This document shows positions 50,103-54,502 of a stretch of 64,000 bases of DNA, piece after piece (the stretch's first letter is position 1; each line of letters starts with the position of its first letter). Below the pieces are notes generated by a model that saw nothing but the letters and a program-made list of their open reading frames with translations, was not told where the DNA came from and did no database searches. The position numbers and the translations under genes are program-made. Source of the stretch: Pelagibacteraceae bacterium (GTDB lineage: Bacteria; Pseudomonadota; Alphaproteobacteria; Pelagibacterales; Pelagibacteraceae); the NCBI GenBank assembly GCA_008638205.1, contig VTPO01000005.1:1-64000 (forward strand), in the 5' to 3' direction.

Positions 50103-50840
50103 ATGATTTTCAGCAAAGAATTTACATCAGCCATACTAATTATAGGTAACGAAATATTATCAGGCAGAACTGTTGATAAAAATACAAGCTTTATAGCAAA
50201 ATGGTTAGGTGATCTAGGTATTAGCGTAGAAGAAGTAAAAATTATTCCAGACAAAGAGGATGTAATCATTGCTTCTTTAAACGAATTGAGAAAAAAATAT
50301 CAGTATGTCTTCACTACAGGAGGTATAGGACCTACACATGATGATATTACTTCAGAGTCGGTAGCAAAAACTTTTGGAAAAAAATACGAATACAATAAAG
50401 AGGCTTATGCGATTCTTGAAAAATACTATGCTAATTCTGAATTCAATGAAGGAAGAAAAAAAATGGCGAAAATGCCAGAAGGTGCAACTTTAATATACAA
50501 TGTGCAAGGATCTGCGCCAGCCTTTTTTTTAGAAAATGTTTTTGTGTTGCCAGGAATTCCAAGCTATGTAGAGTTAATGCTACCTCAATTAAAGGAGGTA
50601 TTGATTGGCGGTAAAAAAATTATCTCTGTTTCTTGCGATGCCAAAGTAAGAGAAAGTAGTATTGCTGTGGAGCTTTCAATCATACAGGACAAATACCCAG
50701 ACATAGACATAGGTAGCTATCCGTATTCAAAAGAAGGTGGTTTTGGTACAATACTTGTTATGAGGTCTGTAGATGAAGACAGAGCAAACAAATGTAAAAA
50801 AGAAATTGAAACAATGCTTAGCAAGTTTGTTCAAAAATAA
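50103..50840 (+). CDS. MoaB/CinA-like competence-damage/molybdopterin-binding domain protein
   Basis: AILIIGNEILSGRTVDKNTSF, VFTTGGIGPTHDDITSESVAKTF. Confidence 0.93.
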   Translation: MIFSKEFTSAILIIGNEILSGRTVDKNTSFIAKWLGDLGISVEEVKIIPDKEDVIIASLNELRKKYQYVFTTGGIGPTHDDITSESVAKTFGKKYEYNKEAYAILEKYYANSEFNEGRKKMAKMPEGATLIYNVQGSAPAFFLENVFVLPGIPSYVELMLPQLKEVLIGGKKIISVSCDAKVRESSIAVELSIIQDKYPDIDIGSYPYSKEGGFGTILVMRSVDEDRANKCKKEIETMLSKFVQK

Positions 50841-51682
50841 TGTTTTCTATTTGCATTCCTACTTTAAATAATTTTAATTATCTAAAAATTTGCTTAGAAA
50901 GCTTAAAAAAAAACTCTATCCTTAACAATGAAATAATTGTTCATGTGAATGAAGGTGGCGACGAAACTCTCCAATATGTAAAAAATAACAATTACTCACA
51001 TACCTTTTCAAAAGAAAAACTTGGAGTATGCTCTTCAGTAAATTTGGCAGCAAAAAAAGCAACTAAAGATTTTATCGTTTATGCGCATGACGATATGTAT
51101 TTTTTGCCAAAATGGGATCTTGTTTTAAAAAACGAAATATCAAAATTAAAAAACAATTTATTTTATTTATCAGGCACTATGATGGGTCCTAAAGAGCATA
51201 TAGATTTTGACTGTGGAGATACCTACCAAAATTTTAATGAAGAAAAATTGTTAAAGAATTATACTAATTATAATCTTTATGATCATCAGGGTACTCACTG
51301 GGCACCACATGTACTTCATAAAGATCTTTGGAATAAAATTTCTGGCTTTGATGAAGCTTTTGATCCTGGCATTGGATCTGACCCTGATTTGAATATGAGA
51401 CTATGGAATGAAAACGTTAGGTATTTTAAGGGTATTAATGATTTTAAAGTGTACCATTTTGGCTCTATTAGCATACGAAAGAAAAAAGACTTGATTAGCA
51501 ATAATGGAACAAGACAATTTTTAAAAAAATGGGGAATGAGTGTGTCTTTTTTTAAAAAACATTATTTAAGATCTATGCAGGTATTTAAAGAGCCATTGCA
51601 AGAACCTGAAAAAAACCTATCTTACTATTTTGAACTTTTGATATGCAAAACAAAGTTAATTTTGCTTTTCTTTCAAAAATAA
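50840..51682 (+). CDS. Glycosyltransferase family 2 protein
   Basis: FSICIPTLNNFNYLKICLESL, DDMYFLPKWD, GIGSDPDLNMRLW. Confidence 0.88.
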   Translation: MFSICIPTLNNFNYLKICLESLKKNSILNNEIIVHVNEGGDETLQYVKNNNYSHTFSKEKLGVCSSVNLAAKKATKDFIVYAHDDMYFLPKWDLVLKNEISKLKNNLFYLSGTMMGPKEHIDFDCGDTYQNFNEEKLLKNYTNYNLYDHQGTHWAPHVLHKDLWNKISGFDEAFDPGIGSDPDLNMRLWNENVRYFKGINDFKVYHFGSISIRKKKDLISNNGTRQFLKKWGMSVSFFKKHYLRSMQVFKEPLQEPEKNLSYYFELLICKTKLILLFFQK

Positions 51683-51757
51683 ACCATTGCTCATTTAATA
51701 GCTAAATTATAAAAGAAGTGATGTTTTTTTGGAAAGCATACATAGCCAGTATAATTT

Positions 51758-52861
51758 ATGACAAGTTTTTATAAAAGAATATTTCCAATAAAATTTTTAA
51801 ATTACTGGAAAAAAAATAGAATAAAATTTTCTTTTAATAAAGAATTACAAAATATAACTGATGATTTTTTAAAATCAAAATCAGAAAAATTTATTTCAAA
51901 CTATTGGAATATCTTAGCAATTAATCATTATAATTATATTTTGAAAGATAAGGGTGTATCAGGTTATGGAAGTTCAATTGCTAGATGGTATAGTACAATT
52001 TTATTAATCGATAATTCTTTAGAAAAATTATTAAATGTATTTTCTAAATTTAAAATAGATTTAAAAAAAGTTGAATTTTGCAAAATACATAAAAACTTTA
52101 CTGTAGTTGAAAGTGCAAATTATAATTATATATGTTGTCTACTTTTTAATTTTATAAAAAAAAATAAAAAGTTAAAATTTTTATCTAAACTTCAAAAAAA
52201 ATCTTACTTAAATTTTGATACTCCTTTTTTAAAAATAGAAAACTTTAAAGTGTCAAGCGACATGATGATTTCACTTTTAGATTATTTTAAAATTGAGAGA
52301 CTTGTTAATTTTAAAAAAGACAAGATAATTTTAGAAATTGGTGCAGGATCTGGTAGACTATCTGATTGTATATTGACTTTAAATAAAAATACAAAGTATC
52401 TTATTTGCGATATAGTACCTTCATATTATTTGTCTTATAAAAGACTTAAAGCTTCATTTCCATATAAAAAAATTTGTTGTTTAAATAGTGAGGATAAGCA
52501 ACCGGAAGTTATAAAAGAAAAAATAAATAAAAATGACATTATTTTTATTTATCCAAACCATCTAAGTATGTTGAGCAAAAAAAGTATTGACTGTACAATT
52601 TGTGTGAATTTTTTACAGGAAGTAAACAAAAAAACTGTTTTAGAATATTTTAATATAATAAATTTTATCTCAAAAAAATTGTATTTAAGTGTTTTTAAAA
52701 ATATGAAAAATTGGTACTCAGGAACTCTTTTTAAAAAAACAGAAAAATATGATTTTTTTAAAGGAGATTATGACATTCCGAATAAATGGAAAAAAGTTTT
52801 TGTTGAGGAATTATATTACCCATCATCACAAATATGCGCAGGGTATCTTTTGAAGGATTAA
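51758..52861 (+). CDS. Putative sugar O-methyltransferase
   Basis: GVSGYGSSIARWYSTILLID; SAM motif IILEIGAGSGRLSDCIL; VNFLQEVNK. Confidence 0.75.
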   Translation: MTSFYKRIFPIKFLNYWKKNRIKFSFNKELQNITDDFLKSKSEKFISNYWNILAINHYNYILKDKGVSGYGSSIARWYSTILLIDNSLEKLLNVFSKFKIDLKKVEFCKIHKNFTVVESANYNYICCLLFNFIKKNKKLKFLSKLQKKSYLNFDTPFLKIENFKVSSDMMISLLDYFKIERLVNFKKDKIILEIGAGSGRLSDCILTLNKNTKYLICDIVPSYYLSYKRLKASFPYKKICCLNSEDKQPEVIKEKINKNDIIFIYPNHLSMLSKKSIDCTICVNFLQEVNKKTVLEYFNIINFISKKLYLSVFKNMKNWYSGTLFKKTEKYDFFKGDYDIPNKWKKVFVEELYYPSSQICAGYLLKD

Positions 52862-52919
52862 ATAATAATTTATTAATAAAGTTGTATTTGGTTTTTAAAT
52901 CAAATAATAAATATAACAT

Positions 52920-53004
52920 GCCCTCGTGGTGGAATGGTAGACACAAAGGACTTAAAATCCTTGCACTTCGGTGAGTGCCGGTTCAAGTCCGGCCGAGGGC
53001 ACCA
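52920..53004 (+). tRNA. tRNA-Leu(UAA), encoded CCA
   Basis: Acceptor GCCCTCG/CGAGGGC, anticodon loop CTTAAAA, long variable arm TTGCACTTCGGTGAGT, T arm GCCGG-TTCAAGT-CCGGC, then ACCA. Confidence 0.96.
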
Positions 53005-53010
53005 CTTAAA

Positions 53011-53229
53011 GTGAATAAAATTATTTTAATATTTTTTATTATAATATTTGCTTCTTCCTGTTCAGAAATTTCTAAAGAAGAAAAATACATTAAAAATTGT
53101 GTAAAAGATGGAATGAAATTGAAGGGTATGGAGGAATACCTAACAGTAAAAGCCTGTGAGCTCGCAAAAAAACAAAACCCAGATGTATTTAATTATTATG
53201 AGGGTAAAATTTTTTCTATAAAAAGATGA
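53011..53229 (+). CDS. Small putative lipoprotein, GTG start 6 nt after tRNA CCA end
   Basis: VNKIILIFFIIIFASSCSEISKEE: signal plus lipobox-like ASSC. Confidence 0.6.
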   Translation: MNKIILIFFIIIFASSCSEISKEEKYIKNCVKDGMKLKGMEEYLTVKACELAKKQNPDVFNYYEGKIFSIKR

Positions 53230-53307
53230 TTATGAGACTGGAAGATGTTAGGGACTTATGGTCTACTTACAAATATGTTAAAAATTCATTTATTTTTTTA
53301 AAAAGAA

Positions 53308-53335
53308 TGTGCATAAATTGTGCACTAGTGTGCAT
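53308..53335. repeat. Three TGTGCAY heptamers spaced 11 and 10 bp
   Basis: TGTGCAT 53308, TGTGCAC 53319, TGTGCAT 53329. Confidence 0.7.
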
Positions 53336-53384
53336 TGAAAAAAAACAAAAAATTAAAGTGCTTGAAATGACTGGTGTAATTACT

Positions 53385-53449
53385 GTGGAAGTAGACTTAA
53401 AATCCTTGCACTTCGGTGAGTGCCAGTTCGAGTCTGGCCGAGGGCACCA
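53385..53449 (+). pseudogene. tRNA-Leu(UAA) remnant (3' half, internally deleted 5' half)
   Basis: GACTTAAAATCCTTGCACTTCGGTGAGTGCCAGTTCGAGTCTGGCCGAGGGCACCA nearly identical to 3' part of the tRNA at 52920-53004. Confidence 0.93.
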
Positions 53450-53452
53450 TTC

Positions 53453-54283
53453 ATGAAATGTAGTTTAAAAAATTTATTTAAAAAAATATTTGAATTTTTT
53501 GGATACACAATAAAAAGAAATTATCCTGATAGGGTTTTTCAGTTCCCTAATAAATTTTTTCCAATTGAAATGAACGAAGTGCAAAAAAAAATTATAGTGG
53601 ATAGTGAAATATATTCTATGACCGGAAGAATAAGAATGTCTCTTTTGACAAAGATTATTGAATACTTAAATAAACAAAATGCTGAGGGTGATATCGTTGA
53701 ATGTGGGGTCTGGAGGGGCGGTAATTTAATATGTGCTCAATTATATTTAAATCATTTAAACTTTAAAAAGAATATAATTGGTTATGATACATTTGATGGC
53801 ATGACCGAACCATCAGATTATGATGTTCAAATAGTTCAAACTAAACCTGATAGTAAAAATAATTTTAGTCCGAAACTAAGAAAAATACTTGCATCAGAGT
53901 GGATGAAAGCAACCGATAAGTATATTAATAAAGGAAAAAATATTTGGGCATATAGTAGTATGGAGGAAGTTAAGCAAAACATAAAAGAAAAAGTACCAAA
54001 TAATAACATTAAACTTATAAAAGGACCCGTCGAAGAAACATTGTTAATCAAGGATAATTTACCTGAAAAAATATCTTTATTAAGACTAGATACAGATTTT
54101 TATGAGAGTACAAAAATTGAGTTGGAAGTCTTATTTCCAAAACTGATCAAAGGTGGATTTTTAATTATTGATGATTATGGTCATTGGAAAGGTGCGAGAA
54201 AAGCTGTAGATGACTACTTTAGTAAAAAAATGCCCTTTGTTCATTTTATAGATGAAACTTGTCGTCTAATAATTAAAAATTAA
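53453..54283 (+). CDS. TylF/MycF-type macrocin O-methyltransferase family protein (start trimmed)
   Basis: EGDIVECGVWRGGNLICAQLYL, GYDTFDGMTEPSDYDV, LLRLDTDFYESTKIELEVLFPKLIKGGFLIIDDYGHWKGARKAVDDYF. Confidence 0.9.
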   Translation: MKCSLKNLFKKIFEFFGYTIKRNYPDRVFQFPNKFFPIEMNEVQKKIIVDSEIYSMTGRIRMSLLTKIIEYLNKQNAEGDIVECGVWRGGNLICAQLYLNHLNFKKNIIGYDTFDGMTEPSDYDVQIVQTKPDSKNNFSPKLRKILASEWMKATDKYINKGKNIWAYSSMEEVKQNIKEKVPNNNIKLIKGPVEETLLIKDNLPEKISLLRLDTDFYESTKIELEVLFPKLIKGGFLIIDDYGHWKGARKAVDDYFSKKMPFVHFIDETCRLIIKN

Positions 54284-54365
54284 AAACACTTTGATCAAAA
54301 CATTTGATTTGAGGAATAATAATGAGTTATAAACAAAATTATAATTAAGAATTAAACAAATTCTA

Positions 54366-54452
54366 GCCCTCACAGTGAAATTGGTAGACACAAAGGACTT
54401 AAAATCCTTGCACTTCGGTGAGTGCCAGTTCGAATTCCGGCCGAGGGCACCA
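54366..54452 (+). tRNA. tRNA-Leu(UAA)-like copy, probably degenerate
   Basis: Full length, but acceptor position 7 mismatched (A-C), C at position 8, 8-nt T loop (TTCGAATT) and A-C mismatch in T stem. Confidence 0.65.
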
Positions 54453-54502
54453 TAATCTTATCTATTTATTTCAGTCTTTATTGGAGATAGTATTCTTTAA
54501 TT

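Follow-up and report, generated by a model that had tools for sequence, protein, structure and literature searches.

A likely cassette integration site in the anticodon loop of tRNA-Leu(UAA) in a Pelagibacteraceae genome

An islet in the genome of a SAR11 bacterium of the Pelagibacteraceae is most likely an integration site centered on the anticodon loop of tRNA-Leu(UAA), occupied by an integrase-less cassette mobilized in trans and by the product of an older event involving a TylF-type methyltransferase gene. The window, the whole stretch of 64,000 nucleotides analyzed here, is part of a 73-kb contig of a 1.12-Mb genome in 24 contigs, rated 99.97% complete. Within 1.5 kb, it contains three versions of tRNA-Leu(UAA): one normal, one reduced to an orphan 3' half, and one whole but degenerate (Table 1). 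From sequence comparison, site-specific insertion of the first insert, between copies 1 and 2, is strongly supported, and we infer from the same comparison a circular intermediate, the enzyme class, the helper, expression, and the order of events. SAR11 bacteria are among the most abundant cells on Earth, with streamlined genomes and few recognized mobile elements.

Three tRNA-Leu(UAA) copies and the genes between them

Table 1. Features of the islet and its upstream flank, in window positions
Feature	Position	Strand	Basis
Variable genes (GT2, weak methyltransferase), cinA to copy 1	50840..52861	+	Locus comparison with relatives
tRNA-Leu(UAA) copy 1, intact	52920..53004	+	ARAGORN; 61.1 bits against Rfam tRNA
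7-nt anticodon loop CTTAAAA of copy 1	52951..52957	+	Orphan-half boundaries here and in relatives
Cargo gene 1, small predicted lipoprotein, about 72 aa	53011..53229	+	ORF list; GTG start
Putative element right end (attR arm)	53236..53395	+	Local alignment with G434 and G216
Three direct repeats TGTGCA at 53308, 53319, and 53329 (spacing 11 and 10 bp)	53308..53334	+	Motif search
Putative attR junction word GTAGACTTAAAATCCTTGC (arm + loop + stem)	53391..53409	+	3/397 family genomes
tRNA-Leu(UAA) copy 2, orphan 3' half, loop to CCA	53396..53449	+	BLAST/alignment
Cargo gene 2, TylF-type methyltransferase, about 276 aa	53453..54283	+	PF05711, E 1.2e-34
tRNA-Leu(UAA) copy 3, whole but degenerate	54366..54452	+	38.5 bits against Rfam tRNA

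A sequence-only reading of this DNA had described a full, a 3'-truncated, and a degenerate tRNA-Leu(UAA) within about 1.5 kb, and ARAGORN and BLAST bear this out. ARAGORN called copies 1 and 3 as whole genes. BLAST with copy 1 against the whole genome returned both of these, a fragment at 53394-53449 (nt 30-85 of copy 1, 95% identity), and one 76% relative on another contig; the proposed search for further copies or 3' fragments of this tRNA thus found none outside the window. Copy 1 is canonical and presumably the functional tRNA-Leu(UAA) gene, whereas copy 3 scores lower against the Rfam tRNA model; its acceptor and T stems contain broken pairs, and its T loop has one extra base. Copy 2 matches exactly from the anticodon loop (53396) through CCA, apart from changes in the T arm. 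The 3' block that was said to recur three times is identical only as far as GAGTGCC; the T arms diverge (copy 1, CCGGTTCAAGTCCGG; copy 2, CCAGTTCGAGTCTGG; copy 3, CCAGTTCGAATTCCGG), and CCAG in this arm is common to copies 2 and 3. The 5' half of copy 3, GTGAAATTGG, is closer to the 5' halves of genus g4 and of viral contigs than to the resident type, GTGGAATGG. Sequence 5' of copy 2 gave a gapped alignment to a tRNA 5' half (copy 1 or consensus) with p about 0.002-0.03. We rejected copy 2 as a decayed whole tRNA, considering that this alignment is borderline and that an arm shared with genomes G434 and G216 explains the sequence better.

Copy 1 reads as attL, composed of a resident 5' half, a crossover in the anticodon loop, and an element-borne 3' half. 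It differs by 1 nt from the single tRNA-Leu(UAA) of the nearest relative, G005, and a 1-nt D-loop deletion common to both identifies its 5' half as resident. The CTTAAAA loop would constitute the crossover (overlap) region. Classical tyrosine recombinase core sites consist of stem arms around a 7-bp overlap (PMC8371274), and the anticodon stem-loop of tRNA-Leu(UAA) fits this arrangement.

Pfam confirmed two of the genes named in the sequence-only reading, TylF (PF05711) and the upstream GT2 glycosyltransferase (E 3.3e-14), whereas the upstream methyltransferase is weak (PF08242, below the cut-off) and the lipoprotein matched no Pfam family. The ORF list places the starts of both cargo genes inside tRNA sequence; their likely real starts are a GTG at 53011, 6 nt after the CCA of copy 1, for the lipoprotein, and an ATG at 53453, 3 nt after the CCA of copy 2, for TylF. 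These distances suggest transcription together with the tRNA. A search of the other 5 genomes in the genus gave no relative of TylF at E<=1e-10. A TylF homologue in locus L054 was rejected as shared array cargo; it adjoins tRNA-Thr and lies outside the tRNA-Leu array.

The genes just upstream of copy 1 (GT2 and methyltransferase) vary between strains, and no tRNA fragment bounds them or ties them to the same event. Between cinA and copy 1, G005 has other genes, G001 and G004 have none, and G064 has a GT2 homologue (57%) in the same place. A second exchange mechanism probably acts on the cinA side of the tRNA.

No integrase, RNA polymerase, or structural phage genes were found in 50840-54460. 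The whole genome had no match to the tyrosine recombinase family PF00589, although gaps in the 24-contig assembly could hide a gene; all 14 control genomes matched. This outcome of the search suggested earlier fits mobilization in trans, itself an inferred feature. Among 100 relatives, 87 have one or more PF00589 proteins and 13 have no match. With no PF00589 protein at all in the window's genome, not even a Xer recombinase was found there.

The locus in relatives and the putative attR junction

Comparison of 18 ParE loci revealed one tRNA-Leu(UAA) adjoining parE in 16, most with cinA on the opposite side; the two others (G059 and G033) lack a tRNA-Leu(UAA) there. G001 and G004 have an empty site, cinA-tRNA-parE, with nothing else between these genes. 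The ParE gene of G004 (L033 15429-17377) is split into several frames, perhaps by sequencing error or as a pseudogene. In G005, a closed genome with 98% ParE identity, two other genes lie upstream, and the SMR gene downstream is the same as in the window. Relatives thus have a single tRNA here and lack the lipoprotein and TylF genes, so that the islet is new in the window's genome; the three copies and their cargo are not an arrangement common to all relatives, as an old duplication devoid of mobility would predict. The predicted presence/absence of cargo with a breakpoint inside the tRNA was observed, the breakpoint being the anticodon loop. The 3' flank of copy 3 aligns with that of the single G005 tRNA, placing copy 3 at that position, and the segment from the 5' half of copy 1 to the 3' end of copy 3 is therefore an insertion relative to G005.

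The junction word GTAGACTTAAAATCCTTGC occurred in the window, G434, and G216 among 397 family genomes and was absent from reversed-pattern controls. It was also found in G514, a genome from another draw than the 397, and 3'-half elements are accordingly rare (3/397 genomes plus G514). In the window, G434, and G216, the 100-150 nt before the junction are homologous (local alignment scores against the window of 94 for G434 and 71 for G216; shuffle maxima, 34); G434 and G216 belong to another SAR11 genus. A 29-mer core of the window's arm was found exactly in the window and G434 only, among 392 genomes. The cargo beside the common arm differs: the lipoprotein in the window, a 235-aa protein with no Pfam match in G434, and a DUF3427/NOV_C protein in G216. 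In G216, a whole tRNA-Leu is followed by the cargo gene, the arm, the 3' half, and a gene read as NAD kinase.

The arm includes three TGTGCA repeats; nowhere else on the + strand of the window do three such repeats fall within 30 bp. They are candidate arm-type sites of an integrase, judging from their spacing and from similar TGTGCA-like repeats in G434, G216, and G514. In G514, the 3' half lies in a phage-like region with phage-like tail genes and adjoins a tyrosine integrase of 349 aa (PF00589, E 1.1e-13; PHROG integrase, E 6.7e-38). The G514 arm is only weakly similar to that of the window, which the G434 and G216 arms match far better. No element was found that combines the window's own attR arm with an integrase, and searches of viral contigs with the exact 31-nt 3' block, a gapped junction pattern, and a 30-nt attR core gave no match.

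In G434, the anticodon loop of tRNA-Leu(UAA) holds a group I intron (L227 16040-16221, - strand; RF00028, 53.2 bits, E 1.9e-12). A similar layout was seen on contig C57 of G514 (L173), where Rfam gave no match at the gathering threshold. An intron in the very loop used by cassettes might block further insertion.

Orphan 5' halves and integrase-bearing elements

A mirror-image arrangement was found in the SAR11 genus g4. Its 81 genomes with a tRNA-Leu(UAA) include 28 that carry orphan 5' halves of this gene, often in tandem arrays and 39 in all as counted from listed rows; nine have two or three. Where both share a contig, the 5' halves lie upstream of the whole gene on the same strand. Most extend to nt 39, the final nucleotide of the loop that also contains the window's breakpoint. 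Beyond the loop, a few left-end types occur, with AGTC[TC] at +23, +33, and +43 against a background of 0.08 words per 75 nt. The right end of a unit consists of a conserved promoter-like stretch and a 5' half, and each insertion therefore gives the resident 3' half a new promoter and 5' half.

The 30 arm-positive g4 units have a median length of 2.57 kb (range, 0.27-15.2 kb; most, 1.3-6 kb). In 26 of them all called ORFs run in the direction of the tRNA, and the first usually begins 160-240 nt into the unit. No integrase is present among the 25 of 55 Pfam families listed for 56 g4 cargo proteins; the listed matches include EcoRI methylase, HSDR_N, GmrSD, Mrr, and Eco57I. PADLOC matches in g4 cargo include type I and II restriction-modification, mads, and PDC-S37. 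Anti-phage genes thus make up much of the cargo, and the units usually lack an integrase. The N-terminal methylation motif of type IV pilins was detected in 10 of the 56 cargo proteins scanned, and the 5.7-kb cassette at L153 4042-9348, which contains a series of small ORFs, may on this basis be a pilin cassette.

Among contigs of a viral collection, 23 match the 28-nt end of the 5' half, L194 and L205 within a nearly whole tRNA. L192, an element of 7.7 kb (contig, 7,799 bp; terminal repeat at offset 7,700), carries the tRNA-Leu 5' half, a left end with AGTCTC repeats, a primase-like protein, and a recombinase of 545 aa. The recombinase matches a PHROG integrase at E 4.3e-20 and PF00589 at E 4.9e-5, the latter below Pfam's cut-off. 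Together with L207, L211, and L213, L192 represents a family of elements with a 545-549-aa recombinase-like ORF, a large primase-like ORF, and the tRNA-Leu 5' half as attachment site. The recombinase of this family had no match in phage records, and L192-type recombinases were present in 4/387 genomes. In G308, where an orphan 5' half and the whole tRNA lie 7.8 kb apart, the interval encodes a relative (49% identity), and AGTCTC repeats stand at the distances seen in L192. Left ends resembled L192 above all shuffles in only 22/43 orphans, and the +23/+33/+43 spacing is the stronger argument. A more distant relative of the L192 recombinase is located within an array in G242. This integrase (507-aa frame, no Pfam match, 33% identical to that of L192) was rejected as helper of the AGTCT cassettes, its left-end repeats being worded differently.

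Pelagiphages integrate at tRNA genes (PMC3861242, PMC6811365, PMC7029224), and in HTVC105P an exact 39-nt tRNA-Leu(UAA) 5' half separates the integrase gene from the RNA polymerase gene. The best phage match (44%) to the G514 integrase was that of KT997847. We dismissed KT997847 as a phage with a 3'-half attP upon inspection, which revealed a whole tRNA-Leu gene. In this deep-sea Autographiviridae contig, the tRNA-Leu(UAA) (L240 about 1471-1556) is of different sequence and adjoins the DNA polymerase gene.

Proposed mechanism, alternatives, and known systems

We propose that a tyrosine recombinase inserted a small circular cassette into the 7-bp CTTAAAA loop of the resident tRNA-Leu(UAA). The cassette, about 445 bp from loop to loop and devoid of an integrase, would have contained a tRNA 3' half, the lipoprotein gene, and the arm region with its TGTGCA repeats, the attP junction of the circle reading arm - GTAGACTTAAAA - 3' half. 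Its insertion would have regenerated the tRNA as copy 1, from the resident 5' half and the cassette 3' half, leaving the displaced resident 3' half at the far end as copy 2. The lipoprotein gene would probably be read from the tRNA promoter. Integrase and transfer would be supplied in trans, most likely by a temperate pelagiphage or a phage-satellite-like element. Before that, another event at this tRNA would have left TylF flanked by two whole tRNA copies, and copy 3 would since have decayed.

The proposal of a tRNA-anchored cargo-insertion site, made in the sequence-only reading, is supported in part: only the segment from copy 1 to copy 2 is built as such an insertion would be. Copy 3 is a whole tRNA rather than a 3' fragment, and a simple chain of 3'-half insertions does not account for it. 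The TylF segment, located between a 3' half and a whole copy, thus required another or extra step, and needs either an element with both halves or homologous recombination. We tentatively entertain, for this segment only, a circular element ending with both tRNA-Leu(UAA) halves, with a whole tRNA as attP, followed by decay of copy 3. The start of TylF 3 nt after the CCA of copy 2, the wholeness of copy 3, and the resemblance of its 5' half to the g4 and viral type rather than the resident type are consistent with such an element. However, no arm repeats were seen between TylF and copy 3, no intermediate was found, and gene conversion among the copies would give a similar pattern.

It is improbable that the first insert is the scar of a temperate pelagiphage prophage that lost its integrase and structural genes but retained the attR arm and the lipoprotein gene. 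The occurrence of GTAGACTTAAAATCCTTGC beside a phage-like integrase and phage-like tail genes in G514 would suit such a scar, as would the use of tRNA genes by pelagiphages. Yet G216 is equally compact, with a whole tRNA, one unrelated DUF3427/NOV_C gene, the same arm, and a 3' half; G434 has the same arm with another cargo gene; and the window's arm matches theirs far better than that of G514. Independent deletions would have to converge on one form in G216 and the window, which renders a cassette family likelier. Tandem duplication or homologous recombination at the tRNA, with decay of redundant copies and no site-specific recombinase, seems highly improbable as an explanation of the whole islet. 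SAR11 recombines often, and the CCAG of copies 2 and 3, the whole but degenerate copy 3, and the alignable gapped 5'-half remnant at copy 2 would agree with this scenario. It is contradicted for copies 1 and 2 by the breakpoint in the anticodon loop, by the same junction and 100-150-nt arm with other cargo in another genus, and by dozens of orphan halves in relatives that break at the same loop, but it remains a candidate for the TylF/copy 3 segment.

Extending the trans-mobilized cassette to SAR11 as a whole, we see about an even chance that the tRNA-Leu(UAA) loop is a shared socket of a tRNA-based cassette system, in which integrase-less cassettes rich in anti-phage genes are stacked in trans and a 3'-half design and a 5'-half-plus-promoter design compete for the same 7 bp. 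As part of this reading, the integrases would come from phage-satellite-like elements and temperate pelagiphages. A defined socket with recognizable ends would make gene flow, above all that of anti-phage genes, readable from genomes and metagenomes, and would render testable how streamlined genomes acquire strain-specific genes.

Several related phenomena are already known: tRNA islands, tycheposons, additive islands marked by tRNA-end repeats, and pelagiphage attachment at tRNA genes (PMC4383910, PMC10872708, PMC3861242, PMC6811365). Like the tRNA/tmRNA islands of tyrosine integrases in the Islander set, the window has a regenerated tRNA, a displaced 3' fragment downstream in the same orientation and on the correct side, a crossover in the anticodon loop, which is a known tRNA subsite, and an empty site in G001, G004, G005, and others; it lacks an integrase inside the island. 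Islander accepts only islands with an integrase and a length of at least 2 kb (PMC4383910), whereas the window's insert measures 0.4 kb and has no integrase; screens of this kind would miss most such cassettes. Only 159 of 3919 Islander islands have 5' fragments, and tandems of three or more number only 4 (PMC4383910), unlike in genus g4, where 5' halves in tandem are common.

Tycheposons, known in Prochlorococcus, reported also in Methylophilaceae (PMC10872708), and listed among proposed phage satellites (PMC11389934), are likewise tRNA-anchored cargo carriers of streamlined marine bacteria, but with a tyrosine recombinase. By their description as elements of 4-200 kb with xerD (PMC10872708), the window's single-gene cassette shares the tRNA anchoring, but neither the recombinase nor a length of 4 kb or more. 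The additive tRNA-Lys island fGI-2, whose inserts start at 330 bp and follow a varying number of tRNA-end repeats (PMC10872708), resembles the window in its serial cargo units marked by such repeats. However, its repeat is the last 20 nt, whereas the SAR11 breakpoint is the anticodon loop, with both polarities at one gene. Temperate pelagiphages (HTVC019P-type; HTVC105P) are linked to the system by the tRNA-Leu(UAA) 5' half next to the HTVC105P integrase, but are about 40 kb in size, and no phage genes were recognized in the SAR11 cassettes; nor does 50840-54460 have the integrase, RNA polymerase, and structural genes of a prophage. Integron cassettes are somewhat alike, being small, stacked at one site, and served by a recombinase supplied elsewhere; the SAR11 site differs as a tRNA anticodon loop with arm repeats. 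SAR11 integrase-poor cassette arrays appeared undescribed in the open literature, a scope outside which the original tycheposon and pelagiphage-integration papers fell, so that a prior description is possible. Set beside these systems, the integrase-poor, single-loop cassette system looks new as a variant of tRNA-anchored islands.
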